Shown: piece by piece, positions 19,633 through 28,090 of the stretch | How positions within the stretch are numbered: position 1 is the stretch's first letter | How the letters are laid out: each line of letters opens with the position of its first letter | Assembly: GCA_028873075.1 (NCBI GenBank) | Contig: JAGWND010000007.1 | Coordinates: 1 to 34,430 of the forward strand | Length of the DNA stretch: 34,430 nucleotides | Source: Bacteroidota bacterium | GTDB lineage: Bacteria; Bacteroidota; Ignavibacteria; UBA10030; UBA8401 | Direction of reading: 5' to 3' | The notes under the pieces: generated by a model | Told to the model about the DNA's origin: nothing | Seen by the model: the letters and a program-made list of their open reading frames with translations, nothing else | The model's database searches: none | Position numbers and translations under genes: made by a program

Positions 19633-20135
19633 TTGGAACTGTTACAAACAAAACCGCGAGGGCTTTTCGCAACGCTTTCCACAGAGAGGCGGCTGAGGAA
19701 TTATTCTCCGAAGACGATCAAAGCATACAAAAGTTGTATTCGTACGCTTACCACTTATGCCGCGCCAAAACATCCCCGCGATCTCACCAATAATGAACTG
19801 CGTCAATTTTTTATTCATCTGGTAGAAGAGAAAAAACTTTCCACCGGAACAATAAGCCAGACAATCAACGCTCTGCGGTTTTTATATGTAGAGCTGTACA
19901 AGAAACCATTTGCGCTGAATGGCCTGAGGCGCCCGCGCAAGGAACGGAAGCTGCCGGTGTTCTTTCAGAAGCAGAAGTGCGTACTTTATTCGAAGCATTG
20001 GGAAACATCAAGCACCGCATTATGATGATGCTTGTGTACTCCGGCGGTTTGCATGTAGGAGAATTAGTCCGATTGAAACCGGAGGATATTGACGGCGAGC
20101 GGACATTCGCGAAGCAAAAAGCGCTTCGCTCATAA
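19633..20135 (+). pseudogene. Tyrosine recombinase/integrase, frameshifted and truncated
   Basis: Frame 1: LRNYSPKTIKAYKSCIRTLTTYAAPKHPRDLTNNELRQFFIHLVEEKKLSTGTISQTINALRFLYVELYKKPF...RPRKERKLPV; after about 19957 continues in another frame as VLSEAEVRTLFEALGNIKHRIMMMLVYSGGLHVGELVRLKPEDID, then ends in repeat sequence. Confidence 0.88.
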
Positions 20136-20206: not shown

Positions 20207-21355
20207 CTACGCGCCGTCTTGAATATACTTGAATCCGTATTTCAGCGAGAGTTCGGCTTTGGTGAGTTCTTTGCCGATGTAAGCGGAATGAGAGAGTTGC
20301 GTAACCCAATTGTTCTCAATGATGGTCCAGTACAGACTTCGGGCATCTTTGCCTTCAATCGTTTGTTGGAGTTTATCATCGTATCCATAATGTTCAACGA
20401 GAATTGTTCCCTTGTCGGCTTGCGGCAACACGACAAAGTATCCAGCTTTGTCCATCTGAATCTTAGACGGCTCTTTCGCCTGAATGATAGGAGCGTCGCT
20501 AATTTCGGCAACAGCGGTCTCCTCATTGCAGTCTGCACATCCACACGATGTCTTGAGATTCATAGGTAGCTCCTTAATCCTTTTTACGATAGTCTCATTG
20601 TCTTCACATCCAATCATATCTACAACTTGTACTTGCTTCCGAAACGACTCGACTTCGTTGGGTGTCACGTTCCTCAGAATCGGTCGCTTTCCCTTCGAGC
20701 CGATGACACGCATCTTCTCGTCCACACCGTTGGTTGAGAGGCTAAGAAGTGTTTGCCCGGGAAGATGTCCCATCGGGTCGGAACCTGCAAGCACAAGAAA
20801 CCGAATTGCTCGGTTCGTAATCGTGTTCTTGATGATCTTGTCAATGCCGATGTTCTCGGTCTCCGTTTTGCCGACAATGCAAACCTCTTCCGGCCGCAGT
20901 GCTGCAAGGTTGTCGGCCAAATCTTGACTTCCAAGCGTTGAGATTGCAACCGGACAATTTCCATTCCCGCGAGCGGGATCTCCGACTTCACAGAGGACTT
21001 TGTACTCTCCCGCAACCGGTGGCCAGCGTTGTTGCTTGACTTCAAATGAACAACTCAACGCATCTTTGGACGCTGCTTCAGGGTATGCTTCGTTGAGCAG
21101 ATTCATCGCCACTGCCGGGAAACAATACTGGCAGCCGAGGCAAGCGTATTTGATCGGCTCCATTTCGGTCCGCCAGTTTACAATATTTCCCTCTAAGGCG
21201 TTTGCTGAACGAGCTTCTACGTTTTTGAGAGCATTGTCAAGCGTTTCGAGTGTGTCTCTCATACACCCACACTTCCGACACTTGGCGAGCGCCATCCCTT
21301 CGCGAAGCTCGGCTTCAATTTTTTCAAAATGTTTTGTCTCTATGTCGGTTTGCAT
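20207..21355 (-). CDS. Fused MtrA-like (tetrahydromethanopterin S-methyltransferase subunit A) and DUF4346-like protein with Cys-rich N-terminus
   Basis: MtrA-like GNCPVAISTLGSQDL...GKTETENIGIDKIIKNTITNRAIRFLVLAGSDPMGHLPGQTLLSLSTNGVDEKMRVIGSKGKRPILRNV...VQVVDMIGCED; C-terminal YFVVLPQADKGTILVEHYGYDDKLQQTIEGKDARSLYWTIIENNWVTQLSHSAYIGKELTKAE; N-terminal CRKCGC and CLGCQYC. Confidence 0.8.
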   Translation of the reverse strand: MQTDIETKHFEKIEAELREGMALAKCRKCGCMRDTLETLDNALKNVEARSANALEGNIVNWRTEMEPIKYACLGCQYCFPAVAMNLLNEAYPEAASKDALSCSFEVKQQRWPPVAGEYKVLCEVGDPARGNGNCPVAISTLGSQDLADNLAALRPEEVCIVGKTETENIGIDKIIKNTITNRAIRFLVLAGSDPMGHLPGQTLLSLSTNGVDEKMRVIGSKGKRPILRNVTPNEVESFRKQVQVVDMIGCEDNETIVKRIKELPMNLKTSCGCADCNEETAVAEISDAPIIQAKEPSKIQMDKAGYFVVLPQADKGTILVEHYGYDDKLQQTIEGKDARSLYWTIIENNWVTQLSHSAYIGKELTKAELSLKYGFKYIQDGA

Positions 21356-21828
21356 TCTTCCTCTCCTTCACAACAATCTGTTTCGGGAAGAGACTTCCGT
21401 TCCATCCAAATATATCCAACAACGATTGAAGACAGCGTAAGGGCAAACGTCAGGAGTTTTGTAAATCCTAAGAACGATGATCCAAACAATGTCAGATATA
21501 CTGCAAGCATCGGCGAACCGCAGCATCCGAGCAGGAAACATCCTGCAACATAGAGAACTCCTGTCAATGTTATTCCGCCAACGAGTCCGGCAAATCCTTT
21601 CTTGCGGGTCTCAAGAAATCTCAGCAGCGCAAACACAGAGAATCCGATTGCGAGCGCATACGAAGCGCCGATTAAGTATTCTGAACGCTCAACATAAAAC
21701 TGTATGTAGTTCGTTTCGTTGGTCATTGCCCAACGCTCAGCGAGTGTTTTCGCTTGTATCACGAAGTACGAAGCGTGCAACACCAAAGCTGCCACGAACG
21801 CACTCGATGACAGGAGAATCTTCTTCAC
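21340..21828 (-). CDS. Multi-TM protein with Cys pairs (GTG start)
   Basis: 162 aa; several TM helices, CFLLGCCGSPM within the membrane region, C-terminal DCCEGEEECKPT; overlaps the neighbour. Confidence 0.65.
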   Translation of the reverse strand: MKKILLSSSAFVAALVLHASYFVIQAKTLAERWAMTNETNYIQFYVERSEYLIGASYALAIGFSVFALLRFLETRKKGFAGLVGGITLTGVLYVAGCFLLGCCGSPMLAVYLTLFGSSFLGFTKLLTFALTLSSIVVGYIWMERKSLPETDCCEGEEECKPT

Positions 21829-22208
21829 TTTGCTTCGACCTCCTGAGCAATGAAGACGTACTTTGCCTGCTCAGTTTTCTTTACTTCACCGTAGGCAATG
21901 ACGTTTGTACCCTCTTTCGGCAGTTGTCCATTGAACTTCACAGGCATTTCTATGCAAGCATCTTCGCAACCTAACGTGAACGCTAAGCTCCTTTCATCAA
22001 CGTGGGCAATTGTGCCTTTCACACCAATGAAGTCTTTGAACATCTCCGGATTGTTCACAACCTCATTGACGTCGACAATTTTTACATTGTTTGCTGTTGC
22101 CCCGGTTTCGGCTTTCTCCGATGGTCTGGACGTCAACCAATGTACTCCCCAACCTGCACCGATGAGAACGAGGGCAATCGCTACGACGCCCAGTGATTTC
22201 TTCTCCAT
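21825..22208 (-). CDS. Membrane-anchored OB-fold-like protein
   Basis: 127 aa; N-terminal TM, FIGVKGTIAHVDERSLAFTLGCEDACIEMPVKFNGQLPKEGTNVIAYGEVKK. Confidence 0.6.
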   Translation of the reverse strand: MEKKSLGVVAIALVLIGAGWGVHWLTSRPSEKAETGATANNVKIVDVNEVVNNPEMFKDFIGVKGTIAHVDERSLAFTLGCEDACIEMPVKFNGQLPKEGTNVIAYGEVKKTEQAKYVFIAQEVEAK

Positions 22209-22544
22209 TCACTTTCTCCTTTTCTTCATTTGGTGCAATCCATCAAGTACTTGCGTCAATGTTAACTTTGGAAAATCTCTTTTCAGTGTATCAACAAGGT
22301 CGCAATATTGGCAGGAGCCCGGGCAGCTTTCGAGTTCCTCGACAATCCGTTCAGCAAGTTCAAGCCGATGTTCTGTTTCAAACGTTGAAACAATTGATTT
22401 GCGGAATGCGGACTCGACTGAGCGCAGCTGCACAAAGATGTCTGACGAGTCCTTTCCCTCTGCAATCATCTTGTTGATCGCTGCCAGTTGTCCCGTCACG
22501 TATTTAATTCGTTTGCTTAGTTCCTTTTTCTGCTTGGAATTCAT
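22209..22544 (-). CDS. CsoR/RcnR-type (DUF156) metal-sensing repressor
   Basis: MNSKQKKELSKRIKYVTGQLAAINKMIAEGKDSSDIFVQLRSVESAFRKSIVSTFETEHRLELAERIVEELES...; start placed at 22544. Confidence 0.82.
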   Translation of the reverse strand: MNSKQKKELSKRIKYVTGQLAAINKMIAEGKDSSDIFVQLRSVESAFRKSIVSTFETEHRLELAERIVEELESCPGSCQYCDLVDTLKRDFPKLTLTQVLDGLHQMKKRRK

Positions 22545-22554
22545 CTCATTTAAG

Positions 22555-22582
22555 ATAATACCAATGGGTAGGGGTTTGTCAA
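22555..22582 (-). promoter_or_regulatory. Predicted promoter of the csoR-type operon with a G/C-tract operator in the spacer
   Basis: On minus strand TTGACA (22582-22577), 16 bp AACCCCTACCCATTGG, TATTAT (22560-22555). Confidence 0.6.
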
Positions 22583-22745
22583 GTCCAATGTACGAAATTT
22601 CTCTGAAGACCACGTGCCGTCGCCGCACATGAGCGCAGCGTGGGGGGGTATCGCGCAATTGCAGATCATGTTTTTTGTTGACTGAAACTGATGAGTTTGT
22701 CAATTTCGTTGTTGACTCTTCACGCGCGATACACGCTGCGCGAAT

Positions 22746-22900
22746 GGCGGCGGAACAAGCGTAAGCACCTCGCTCCATTGTTTTTGCCGCGTGTTGGTTT
22801 GCGGCTCCAGCTGCTGGAAATCAATCGTTTGTCGCGGCTTCCGCCGCATTATCTTTGAGCGGCAAAAGCAACGGCGTGCTTACGCTGAACGTTAGCCGCA
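22746..22900. repeat. Long imperfect hairpin, integron attC-like, ending GTTAGCC
   Basis: AGCGTAAGCAC (22758-22768)/GTGCTTACGCT (22876-22886) and TTGTTTTTGCCGC (22778-22790)/GCGGCAAAAGCAA (22859-22871); GAACGTTAGCC at the right end. Confidence 0.55.
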
Positions 22901-22943
22901 TGTCGTGCGATTGCCACAATCAATGAACATACGGAGATGAATA

Positions 22944-23282
22944 ATGAACAACGTCGAGTCTGAAATCCACGATGCGATGGCAGCCATCAATCGAGCGTGG
23001 CGTGAGAGCCGTCCTTCGGAAATGGAACCGTATTTGCATCCTCAAGTAACAATGGCCTTTCCCGGCTTCAGCGGCACTATCGTTGGGAAAGATGCGTTGT
23101 TAGCAAACTTCGTCGAATTCTGTTCGAATGCTTGTGTGTTCGAATACAAAGAGAGCGATGAAGAGACGCAGAGCGTCTACGGTCAACGTTCCCGCGCAGG
23201 AGCGTGGGAACGATATAAACTCGTTTTCGGCTGTCGGGGCGATGCCCCCGACTTGGAGCATCTGACGCCTTCGGCGTCATGA
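22944..23282 (+). pseudogene. NTF2/SnoaL-like protein, 3' part replaced by repeat sequence
   Basis: MNNVESEIHDAMAAINRAWRESRPSEMEPYLHPQVTMAFPGFSGTIVGKDALLANFVEFCSNACVFEYKESDEE, then only hairpin-derived codons. Confidence 0.65.
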
Positions 23283-23426: not shown

Positions 23427-23711
23427 TCAAAACGAAAACCGCGTAACGAAGTCGCTCATCGTCAGCGTGAACATGATGATGAGCCAGAAAAATCCTGCCG
23501 ACACAAACACCCATGTTACACGGCTGCCGTAGCGCACGTGCATGAAATAAAGAATTACGAGCGTCGCCTTGATGATGGCAATAACGAGGGCTATGATGAC
23601 GTTGAAGGGGCCCAAATCGAAATACGCCATCGAGATGGTGAGAATAAGCAGCACCATGAGTGCTGCAAAAATGAAGTAGTAAACTTTTCGTGAAACAACG
23701 TGTCCGTTCAT
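23427..23711 (-). CDS. Cytochrome c oxidase subunit IV
   Basis: 94 aa multi-TM, IIKATLVILYFMHVRYGSRVTWVFVSAGFFW; downstream of coxC. Confidence 0.85.
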   Translation of the reverse strand: MNGHVVSRKVYYFIFAALMVLLILTISMAYFDLGPFNVIIALVIAIIKATLVILYFMHVRYGSRVTWVFVSAGFFWLIIMFTLTMSDFVTRFSF

Positions 23712-24361
23712 TTGTGCACGTGGATAAGATAAAGCAATGGATAAAGAAAAATCCAGACGATGTCAATAAAGTGCCAGTAGAGTCCGCTGACTTCCACCGG
23801 CGAGTAATATTCTTTCGTGAAGTTGCCCCGCGCCGTCATCATTGCAATAACGCTCAGAACGCCGATGCCGATGATCAAGTGGAGCGCGTGGAATCCCGTC
23901 ATCACAAAATAGAGAATGAAATAAATTTCCGCTTTGCCCGCATTAGGTCCTTTATATTCAAAATTCCATCCCGGAACAAGATGCTCGACGTACTTGTGAT
24001 GATATTCGAACCCTTTGATAACAAGAAACGTTACGCCGAACACCATCGTGATAATAAGGAAAAGTATGATCTGCTTCCGCTTTCCTTCCTGCGCGGCGTG
24101 AACGGCAAGCGCCATCGTCAAGCTGCTGACGAGCAGCACGCCGGTGTTAATGCCGCCGAGGAGAATATCCATGTAATGACTCGCCGCGGCAAACGCATCG
24201 GGATACGAAAAGCGGTACACGAAATACGCCATGAACATTCCGCCGAAGAAAAGAATTTCTGTGGCGAGAAATGTCCACATGCCGAGCGTGCCGGCTTCCT
24301 TCTGCTGTTCGAGATCGTCGAATTGATGAGCGACATAGTGTGAAGAATGTTCGTTAGCCAC
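23708..24361 (-). CDS. coxC: Cytochrome c oxidase subunit III (GTG start)
   Basis: [24 protein letters not shown]...[14 protein letters not shown]...[18 protein letters not shown]. Confidence 0.95.
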
Positions 24362-25982
24362 CGGCAACGTCCTCCTCGAAAACCCCGTCTGTGTATGCAT
24401 ACGCTTCTTCATTGACAATCGGCGTCTTCTCAAAATTGAATGTCGGCGGCGGAGACGACGTGAGCCATTCCAATCCTTTCGCATTCCACGGATTGTCGCC
24501 GGCAGTTTTTCCCTTCCGCAGCGACCACATTAAATAAAAGAACGGAATGATGTATCCGAGCCCGAGAATGCTTGCGCCTGCTGTCGAAAGAACATTCAGC
24601 ACCTGGAACTCCGGCGGATAAATATGATAGCGCCGCGGCATCCCCAAATAACCGAGAATGAATTGCGGGAAGAATGTCAGGTTGAATCCTACAAATAAAA
24701 TCAACGCCGCCAATTTCGACCAGCCTTCAGAATAGAGCTTGCCCGTCATCTTGGGCCACCAAAAATGAAGCGCTGCCATGTATCCCATCACCGCGCCGCC
24801 GACCATGATGTAATGGAAATGCGCGATAACGAAATACGTATCGTGCACATGCACGTCAACCGGCAATGTTGCGAGAACGATTCCCGTCAATCCGCCGATG
24901 GTGAACAAGCCGATGAAGCCGAACGCGTACAGCACCGGCGTTTGAAAACGAATCGTTCCTTTATACAACGTTGCAGTCCAGTTGAACACTTTTACTGCCG
25001 ATGGAATTGCAACGAGAAAGCTGAGCGCGGAAAATGCCATCCCCGCATAGACCGACTGACCGCTGACGAACATGTGATGTCCCCACACAAGAAATCCGAA
25101 CACGGCAATCGCCATGCTTGCGAACGCCATTTGCCGGTAGCCGAATAATTTTCGACGAGAAAAACAGGTTACCACTTCGCTTACAACGCCCATCGCAGGA
25201 AGCACCATGATGTACACAGCGGGATGAGAATAGAACCAGAACAAATGCTGGAACAAAATCGGGTCGCCGCCGATGTTCGGATCGAAAATTCCGACACCGG
25301 CAATCCGCTCGAACCCGACCAGCGCAAGCGTAATGGCGATGACCGGCGTTCCTAAAATCTGAATGACGCTCGTCGCATAATGCGCCCAGATAAATAGAGG
25401 AAGCCGGAACCATGTTAACCCCGGCGCACGCATTTTATGGATCGTTACGATAAAATTCAATCCGGTGAGAATCGAAGAGAATCCGAGAATGAACACGCCG
25501 ATAACCGTGGGCACGACGTTCGTGTGGGAATAGCCGCTGCTGAACGGCGTGTAAAATGTCCAGCCGGTATCAACGCCGCCCATCACCATCGCCGTGAGCG
25601 TGAACATGCCGCCGACAATATAAACGTACCAGCTCAGCAAATTTATTTTCGGAAACGCAAGGTCGCGCGCGCCGATCATCATCGGCACGAGAAAGTTGCC
25701 GAACACGGCGGGGATGGACGGGATCAGGAAAAAGAAGATCATCGTGATGCCGTGCATCGTAAACATTTTGTTGTACGTGTCTGCCGAAACAAGCGTTCCT
25801 TCCGGAGAAAGAAGCGTCAGGCGAATCACGAGCGCAAAAAATCCGCCGATCATGAAGAAGATCGTAATGGAAATCAAATAAAGAATGGCAATGCGCTTGT
25901 GGTCGGTGGTCAGCAGCCACGACTTCACGCCGTAACCATTGTTCAAATAATTCACGTGATCCGTGCTCTCGCTTGCTTCCAT
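24354..25982 (-). CDS. coxA: Cytochrome c oxidase subunit I
   Basis: 542 aa; [43 protein letters not shown]. Confidence 0.98.
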
Positions 25983-25985
25983 TGC

Positions 25986-26939
25986 TTACTTTCCTTTCGA
26001 AGCCGTCTGTTGTTTTCCGAGCGACTTAACATATTCTATCAATTGCATCAACTGCGCCTGATCAATTTGATTCTTGAACGTCGGCATAACCGGCTGGTAC
26101 GTGGCGACGACTTTCGCCGTCGGATCAAGAATTGATTCGCGGATGTAATCCATGTCGGCAACAACGGTCTGCCCGGTTTGCAGTTTCACTTTTTGTCCGA
26201 ACAAGCCGATGAGCGACGGACCGCGTCCGGTGTTGTCGGATTTATGGCAGGTAACGCAGCCGAACTGCGTGAACAGCTGTTCGCCGGAGCTTGACATTGT
26301 GGCGCCGGTCGAGGATTTTCCCGAAAGCCATTGTTCGTATTCCCACGGCTGCATCACGATCACCTTGCCGACCATCTGCGCGTGCCCCGTTCCGCAATAT
26401 TGCGCGCAGAAAAGATGATACTCTCCTACTTTCGTCGCCTCAAACCATTCCGTCGTGTAACGGCCCGGAATGACATCCTGTTTTACACGAAATGCAGGGA
26501 TGAAAAAATCGTGAATCACATCCTGCGACGTTAAGATCAAGCGCACCGGTTTGCCGAGCGGAACGTGCAGCTCGTCAATCTCGCGGTTCCCTTCCGGGTG
26601 CTGAATGTACCACATCCACTGTTTGCCGACGACGTAGATATCCATGGCATCTCTCGGCGGAACATGCATGTCGAAATATAATTTCGATGCCCACGCGAAA
26701 ATTCCCATCGTGATGCAGAGCGGAATGATCGTCCAGACAAGCTCGAGCTTCAGATTTTCCGATGTCGCACCTTTCCTGCTTGCCCGCGAGCCTTGCCGGT
26801 AGCGGATGGAAAAGAAAATCACGCCGACAAAAATGAGCGCGGTGAAGAAAACGATAATTCCCATCAAAGCAAAGAACAGCAGGTCAACGCGCGATGCTGT
26901 CGTAGAAGCTTCGGTCGGGAAAAGAGGGATATTAAACAT
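25986..26939 (-). CDS. coxB: Cytochrome c oxidase subunit II with fused c-type haem domain (caa3-type)
   Basis: CuA motif CAQYCGTGHAQM; C-terminal CVTCH. Confidence 0.96.
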   Translation of the reverse strand: MFNIPLFPTEASTTASRVDLLFFALMGIIVFFTALIFVGVIFFSIRYRQGSRASRKGATSENLKLELVWTIIPLCITMGIFAWASKLYFDMHVPPRDAMDIYVVGKQWMWYIQHPEGNREIDELHVPLGKPVRLILTSQDVIHDFFIPAFRVKQDVIPGRYTTEWFEATKVGEYHLFCAQYCGTGHAQMVGKVIVMQPWEYEQWLSGKSSTGATMSSSGEQLFTQFGCVTCHKSDNTGRGPSLIGLFGQKVKLQTGQTVVADMDYIRESILDPTAKVVATYQPVMPTFKNQIDQAQLMQLIEYVKSLGKQQTASKGK

Positions 26940-27050
26940 AGCCGGAAAATTCAGTTCGATAATTGTAATTACGCTGTCACAACGTCACAAAGAATTGATT
27001 CACGTTTCATGATTCATGATTTTTCACCCGTTCCCAAAATCTGTTCGGGA

Positions 27051-27111
27051 GCGAAATGTTTTCCTCCCTTTACCCCACTCCTTGAGGGGGGACAAAGGGA
27101 GAGGTTTTCGC
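27051..27111. repeat. Hairpin repeat between coxB and the SCO gene
   Basis: GCGAAA (27051)/TTTCGC (27106) enclosing CTCCCTTT/AAAGGGAG. Confidence 0.6.
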
Positions 27112-27112
27112 T

Positions 27113-28090
27113 TCAGGTTTTTTCTTGCGCATCCTGCGCGCCGTTTTTTTTCTTTTCATGCCGGAAAAAAATGAACAGCACGGTGCCGAGCACGACAATC
27201 GTTACCGCACCGGCTGCGCGGAAAATATTTTGAATGACCAAACCGTATTTCCCTGTAACAGGATTATAACAATAACACAACAGCAAAAGCTGATCCACTG
27301 GCGAGCCGATTTTTCTTGACGATGCCTCTATCAACGAGAAGCGAAGATCTCTCGGCTGATATTCGATACCGAACAGGTACCTCGACACTTTGCCTTGCGG
27401 GGTCAACACCATAATGCCGCTCGGATGTGCGTACGTATCTGTTGTCGAATCGTACAAGTACCGGAAGCCGACCGCATCGGCAAGCGAATCAATCTGCGGC
27501 TTCTCGCCTGTCAAGAAATGCCAGCCTTCTTCGGAGCCGGGACGATTGCCGTACATCTTCAAATATTCTTTCTTTTTACCCGCCGCGATGTCGGGCGTTT
27601 CTTTCGGATTGATGCTGACGGTAACGACATTAAAATCTTTTCCGACGGACATTCTCAAGGAATTAAACGCCTGATCCATGCCGTTCAGAACTTGTGTGCA
27701 GAGCATCGGGCATTCATAATAGACGAGCGATAACACGACGGGCTTGTCATGAAAATATTCTGCAAGCTTCACCTCTTTGCCTGTTTCATCACGAAATGTC
27801 GCATCCAACGGAATTTGTGAATTCAGCTTTTGCTCGAACTTTACTTGAGCGAACACTTGTTTTGAATTCAACTGAGCAGTTGCCGGCTGCACTACGACGA
27901 ACATCGTCAGTATCACAACAACAAATACACCGATAAAGCCGTTATGCCCGAATTTCCCGCTTTCCAGGGATTCCGCTTTGAACGGGATTCCAAAAAGCGG
28001 AACTTTTGTCGGGCATCCATTCAAAAGATTCCCGCCCAAAGCCTGCGGAAATGACACAGCTTTTTTTTCGCCACAATACTTCGTTTTCAT
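27113..28090 (-). CDS. SCO1/SenC-family protein with repeat-encoded N-terminal insertion
   Basis: YYECPMLCTQVLNGM (CxxxC) ... GIMVLTPQGKVSRYLFG; C-terminal TM. Confidence 0.9.
   Translation of the reverse strand: MKTKYCGEKKAVSFPQALGGNLLNGCPTKVPLFGIPFKAESLESGKFGHNGFIGVFVVVILTMFVVVQPATAQLNSKQVFAQVKFEQKLNSQIPLDATFRDETGKEVKLAEYFHDKPVVLSLVYYECPMLCTQVLNGMDQAFNSLRMSVGKDFNVVTVSINPKETPDIAAGKKKEYLKMYGNRPGSEEGWHFLTGEKPQIDSLADAVGFRYLYDSTTDTYAHPSGIMVLTPQGKVSRYLFGIEYQPRDLRFSLIEASSRKIGSPVDQLLLLCYCYNPVTGKYGLVIQNIFRAAGAVTIVVLGTVLFIFFRHEKKKNGAQDAQEKT
27945..28017. repeat. Palindromic repeat inside the SCO coding sequence
   Basis: ATGCCCGA (27945-27952)/TCGGGCAT (28010-28017), CCGCTTT/AAAGCGG, direct GGGATTCC at 27968 and 27985. 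Confidence 0.75.

Follow-up and report, generated by a model that had tools for sequence, protein, structure and literature searches.

A widespread MtrA/DUF4346 protein, probably corrinoid-binding and metal-linked, with membrane partners and candidate selenocysteine forms

HgcAB provides a known case of corrinoid chemistry on metals. Like the gene set described here, that system (PMC11588087) unites a corrinoid domain with a transmembrane part and Cys clusters, and selenocysteine (Sec) variants have been reported for both HgcA and HgcB (PMC13188914). The two systems differ, however, at their centre: the corrinoid fold of HgcA is unrelated, its cobalt ligand is a Cys where our protein has a His, and the genome that carries our locus yielded no profile match to HgcA (NF040863). 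Fold, a His84/Glu54 pair, Thr53, Gly57, Asn64 and the region of the GxxPxxxN meander are shared with methanogen MtrA (structures 5LAA and 5L8X; PMC4915002), for which the reported cobalamin contacts include His84, Glu54, Thr53, Gly57, Asn64 and Tyr18 (PMC4915002). Unlike methanogen MtrA, our protein has an added Cys domain and no C-terminal transmembrane helix, in place of which it carries a DUF4346 domain; unlike methanogen Mtr, it occurs mostly in non-methanogens, in a metal-linked context, and no other Mtr genes were seen nearby. With the AcsCD corrinoid iron-sulphur protein, which is a neighbour in three Nitrospirota, it shares a possible combination of Fe-S cluster, corrinoid and methyl-pterin, whereas corrinoid fold and domain order differ. 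The MerP-MerT-MerA import relay resembles our locus in logic only, with a periplasmic thiol protein, a Cys-Cys membrane protein and a cytosolic enzyme; there is no MerA in our operon.

The window, a 34,430-nucleotide stretch of a Bacteroidota contig, contains this operon as four tight minus-strand genes (20207-22544). A CsoR-family regulator of 111 amino acids (csoR, 22209-22544, start ATG at 22544) directly abuts the gene of a CcmE-like OB protein (21825-22208), which overlaps by four nucleotides (GTGA, 21825-21828) with the gene of a four-helix membrane protein (21340-21828); the latter overlaps by 16 nucleotides (21340-21355) with the MtrA/DUF4346 gene (20207-21355). The packing with its two overlaps, described in an earlier note on this DNA, was found exactly so, as was the single promoter ahead of the genes, a strong sigma-70-type TTGACA-16 nt-TATTAT element on the minus strand (22582-22555; 11 of 12 positions in our scan) with a TG before the -10 box. 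Only 11 nt separate the -10 box from the csoR ATG that follows it, so that the mRNA may have almost no leader. The C-rich promoter spacer contains TACCCATTGGTA (22559-22570), a possible operator; the -35 box and the C-rich spacer are also kept in two relatives (L006 and L009), while the exact palindrome is not conserved. No Rfam family was found in the window.

All three protein families named by the earlier note were matched in Pfam, and its MtrA-like core and DUF4346-like domain are confirmed by strong scores (PF04208, 1.1e-38, 133.1 bits against a gathering threshold of 25; PF14251, 4e-22). The MtrA domain occupies residues 108-264 and DUF4346 residues 301-380. Ahead of them stand the two Cys clusters that the note had also seen (C26, C29, C31 and C72, C75, C78), and these prove invariant, each Cys being kept in 73-74 of 73-74 relatives. 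Residues 109-263 align to MtrA of known structure (phmmer), so that the reported contacts His84, Glu54, Thr53, Gly57, Asn64 and Tyr18 correspond to H197, E167, T166, G170, N177 and Y118. The first five of these, including the cobalt ligand H197, are kept without exception (83 of 83 relatives), and Y118 is a Tyr in 75 of 80. In the AlphaFold2 model (pLDDT 86.4), the MtrA part superimposes on cobalamin-bound 5LAA with a Z score of 22.6 and an rmsd of 2.0 over 151 residues; one alignment used for structure modelling excluded the rows from plasmid records. Corrinoid binding by the predicted protein is well supported because of this MtrA fold and the invariant His and Glu. Seven B12-binding domains are encoded elsewhere in the genome, which therefore very likely uses B12.

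A model that covers nearly the whole protein (residues 4-382) is NF002128 (PRK00964.1-6, full length, named MtrA), with 444.7 bits against a cut-off of 568; the model for subunit A of methanogen Mtr, TIGR01111, gave 122.8 bits against an equivalog cut-off of 249. The name of NF002128 implies a function in methanogenesis, which does not fit our protein, and 'tetrahydromethanopterin S-methyltransferase subunit A' is a misleading annotation in non-methanogens. A role in the methanopterin pathway was rejected, as neither MtrH nor any other Mtr gene was seen in the stretches examined, in agreement with the earlier note, which had seen no other methanopterin gene. DUF4346 may bind a pterin, as suggested by its Pfam name and by its similarity to the C-terminus of TIGR00284. 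Structure searches with this domain reached a Z of only about 6, with ribosomal proteins, and those with the Cys domain and the membrane part listed no convincing relative.

The regulator belongs to the CsoR family, as the earlier note had proposed (PF02583, 3.5e-11, 43.8 bits against a gathering threshold of 22.8). In our alignment, read against what we take to be the canonical CsoR pattern, its His is kept, but the two Cys positions of the copper sensor are apparently not Cys, which advises against taking the protein for a copper sensor. Its sequence ends in a Cys cluster, CPGSCQYC, which is invariant in six of six aligned proteins as a CPGxCxYC tail and might plausibly act as a soft-metal sensor. 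Beyond the window, the csoR gene occurs only in five close relatives (L006-L010); elsewhere, an ArsR or MerR regulator stands in its place.

The two partner proteins, one periplasmic by prediction and one in the membrane, both have conserved Cys. The OB protein, whose match to CcmE remains below the cut-off (PF03100, 1.1e-3, 19.8 bits against 24.6), is probably periplasmic and signal-anchored, judging from its N-terminal hydrophobic segment. Among 14 aligned relatives, almost all keep its LGCEDAC motif as GCEDAC; two have GCKDAC or GCQDTC, and the motif is missing from one short piece (L039). The membrane protein, a member of no described family and without a Pfam match, carries a GCCGSP motif, with Cys at a helix break, and a Cys-containing C-terminal tail. 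GCCGSP is invariant in all 19 homologues. Beyond a weak match to a MerTP-like NCBIfam model (0.031), no sequence relation to the Mer proteins was found, and an assignment to MerT or MerF is not supported, since no Mer family is among the Pfam matches of the 19 members. Six loci (L022, L024, L026, L028, L063, L067) encode the membrane and MtrA proteins as one fused chain. A gene of an SO_0444/SaoE-like (ArsP_1) efflux permease (L024:6120-7124) lies just upstream of one of these fusions.

When 84,980 species genomes were scanned, 127 relatives of the MtrA/DUF4346 protein came to light across bacteria and archaea, and 80 of them, from Bacteroidota to archaea, were kept. Within its own phylum, the gene was found in one of 296 sampled genomes, that of the window, and in none of 40 close relatives. 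Distant relatives reside on four plasmids, and none were detected in viral contigs and phages. This patchy distribution, together with the plasmid copies, fits horizontal transfer. The earlier note had asked for co-occurrence of the four families across phyla. This holds for the trio of OB, membrane and MtrA proteins, which recurs in Bacteroidetes, Verrucomicrobia, Omnitrophota, Acidobacteria and one Methanomassiliicoccales archaeon, with fusions among them, but not for CsoR with its restricted occurrence. The complete four-gene set recurs in L006-L010, and chance co-occurrence was rejected in view of this recurrence and of the enrichment of metal genes described below. Three of these contigs (L007, L008 and L010) belong to one metagenome-assembled genome (MAG), WY2.bin60, each with a related four-gene set; the module may be present there in several copies, or the bin may be mixed.

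Metal genes, counted as metal-type ArsR, CsoR or MerR regulators, heavy-metal P-type ATPases and Czc-type RND pumps, adjoin 26 of the 62 loci outside Nitrospirota (our own count over the results, leaving out one Mg-type ATPase at L057). ArsR matches numbered 15 within 3 kb and one at 4.5-8 kb, and P-type ATPase matches 12 and zero, the near bin comprising about 303 kb and the far bin about 230 kb; the neighbour profiles were built from genes within 5 kb, which biases this comparison toward near matches, and the ATPase count includes the Mg-type enzyme and small HMA proteins. Many of the surveyed contigs are short, and those from MAGs may have been binned wrongly. Seven heavy-metal ATPases were tested, and each scores above the cut-off of the cadmium family TIGR01512, and in Paraburkholderia a CadR/PbrR-like MerR gene is divergent from the MtrA/DUF4346 locus. 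Such neighbours point to Cd, Pb, Zn or Hg as the metal class concerned. The metal-linked corrinoid module that the earlier note had envisaged is supported in part, by the conserved ligands and by the metal regulators and efflux genes nearby; its regulator is not general, and copper is not to be assumed.

In our judgement, a corrinoid-binding protein with a metal-related role is quite probable for the window and similar operons, and the gene set suggests an undescribed B12-based handling of toxic metals. As best reading, we regard the proposed relay and corrinoid module as a functional parallel to HgcAB or Mer. The operon would respond to metal and handle soft metal (or metalloid) ions, which the periplasmic OB thiol protein would hand over via GCEDAC to the membrane protein. 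From there, the metal would travel over the Cys-Cys site (GCCGSP) and the Cys-containing tail of the membrane protein to the soluble corrinoid protein, which would receive it at its N-terminal Cys (or Sec/Cys) site. Cobalamin, held in the MtrA fold of this protein with its cobalt coordinated from below by His197, could then methylate the bound metal or, in reverse, demethylate an organometal, and DUF4346 may serve the side of the methyl donor or acceptor. The thiol relay is suggested by the recurrence of the trio, by its fusions and by the conserved GCCGSP and GCEDAC motifs; its direction, the metal as substrate and the movement of a methyl group are what we infer from this arrangement. That the corrinoid centre, fed from periplasm to cytosol, carries out methyl chemistry on a soft metal is a tentative proposal, to which we give somewhat less than an even chance. 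The metal operons contain no methyl-donor enzyme (MtrH- or AcsE-like), which counts against it. Instead of a substrate metal, the Cys domain could hold an Fe-S cluster for the reactivation of cobalamin.

On Planococcus plasmids, ArsR, an HMA protein and an ATPase adjoin the MtrA/DUF4346 gene, and the encoded protein (L003:7350-8729) contains an extra Cys-rich, metallothionein-like stretch, inserted after the Cys clusters and ahead of the MtrA domain. This insert, the many Cys of the family and the ATPases as direct neighbours would suit a metal buffer or chaperone, whose Cys clusters sequester Cd, Pb or Hg and deliver them to P-type ATPases while the MtrA fold serves as scaffold or as sensor of the corrinoid state. 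We consider this improbable, however, as a working corrinoid is indicated by the invariance of the cobalt ligand, of the Glu paired with it and of most of the named cobalamin contacts, and a relay that resembles import would work against a pure buffer.

Ten relatives carry an in-frame TGA exactly at the codon of Cys72, which in the window gene is a TGC (21140-21142, minus strand). The first six of these loci are L057, L074, L077, L078, L081 and L084; four more (L088, L091, L092, L093) emerged from searches near two of them. SelB and tRNA-Sec both score above their cut-offs in each of the first six genomes, and neither does so in any of three genomes that encode a Cys form; the tRNA-Sec result covers these six of the ten TGA genomes. 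SelB was also found in three of the four further genomes, and the one without a match (G693) has its MtrA/DUF4346 gene split over contigs. A SECIS-like hairpin follows 3' of the TGA at the expected place, with a GGUC loop in 6 of 10 TGA members and 0 of 73 Cys members, and the hairpins of TGA members are stronger (Mann-Whitney p = 0.001, kinship ignored). In the Firmicutes group of these members, one stem pair of the hairpin is changed on both sides from U-A to A-U, a single event that is not significant alone. What had looked like a separate N-terminal gene in Firmicutes is actually one gene interrupted by the TGA, and an alternative genetic code was dismissed, as TGA serves as the stop of other long reading frames at five of the six loci (none were seen in L084). 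Sec in place of Cys72 in these ten relatives, which fall in two separate places on the tree, is strongly supported by this genomic evidence. They represent a candidate selenoprotein family, whose database genes are probably truncated or mis-started. Reviews of selenoproteins (AEM 2026, Biomolecules 2022) include a putative mercuric transport protein, a cation-transporting ATPase and a MerB-like protein, and the former additionally HgcA and HgcB; neither contains an MtrA/DUF4346 selenoprotein, nor did we find a Sec form of NF002128 described in the literature consulted, although priority is not certain.

Sec at a UxxC-type site, the CxxxC of the OB protein and the Cys at a helix break of the membrane protein would also be compatible with a transmembrane thiol/disulphide (electron) relay of CcdA/DsbD-like logic, whose task under metal stress would be to maintain the corrinoid or the Cys site in reduced form. 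GCCGSP, though, lacks the CxxC spacing of a redox pair, and the window operon includes no thioredoxin-fold partner, which makes such a relay very unlikely in our view.

The Nitrospirota members (L030-L064, L079) form one clade on the tree, in which the MtrA/DUF4346 gene is fixed beside parA-parB (about 20 loci) and has no ArsR or P1B neighbour; three of these loci adjoin acsC/acsD/acsE-like genes. No adjoining metal-resistance genes were seen for the Sec-containing members either. As both groups are without metal neighbours, the ancestral role of the family may lie in one-carbon metabolism, and the metal modules would then be derivatives of it. This context also favours a corrinoid iron-sulphur protein of one-carbon metabolism, in which an Fe-S cluster of the Cys domain reduces Co(II), the MtrA domain carries the methyl group and DUF4346 meets the methyl-pterin; the copy in metal operons would replace or repair a metal-sensitive methyl transfer, for example in methionine synthesis, and leave the metal untouched. 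The invariant CxxCxC and CxxCxxC motifs resemble cluster ligands, and in an Omnitrophota MAG (L026) the trio, with its fusion, lies among the tetrapyrrole-biosynthesis genes hemA, hemC and a uroporphyrinogen methyltransferase gene. Such a function would leave the Cys-bearing membrane and periplasmic partners and their fusion unexplained, however, Sec would be an uncommon substitute for an Fe-S ligand, and pumps of the Cd/Zn/Pb class are enriched nearby, so that we rate it as unlikely.

The metal-methyl reading, in its widest form, would describe a corrinoid system that arose from MtrA, independently of HgcA, and adds methyl groups to a soft metal or removes them, served by a thiol relay of its own from periplasm to cytosol. 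It would be widespread in bacteria and archaea, with Sec in some anaerobes; we rate this form of the reading as rather doubtful. A mobile MtrA-type protein in metal operons, plasmid-borne and patchily distributed, with a membrane fusion and a Sec form, is a candidate for a second metal-corrinoid chemistry.

The surroundings of the module in the window hold several further features. Downstream, a tyrosine recombinase gene is broken over two frames (19633-20135, plus strand; best match integron integrase, TIGR02249, 2.4e-15). A long imperfect palindrome (22740-22905, arms 22758-22790 and 22859-22886) lies upstream of csoR and folds as single-stranded DNA with a z score of -3.2. It could be attC-like, and the module could have arrived as an integron cassette; the core sites, however, fit poorly. 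Between the palindrome and a cytochrome c oxidase operon (23427-28090, minus strand; subunits IV, III, I and II, the last with cytochrome c) stands a small SnoaL/DUF4440-like reading frame (22944-23282, plus strand, sub-threshold), and a SCO1/SenC gene is located upstream of the oxidase operon.
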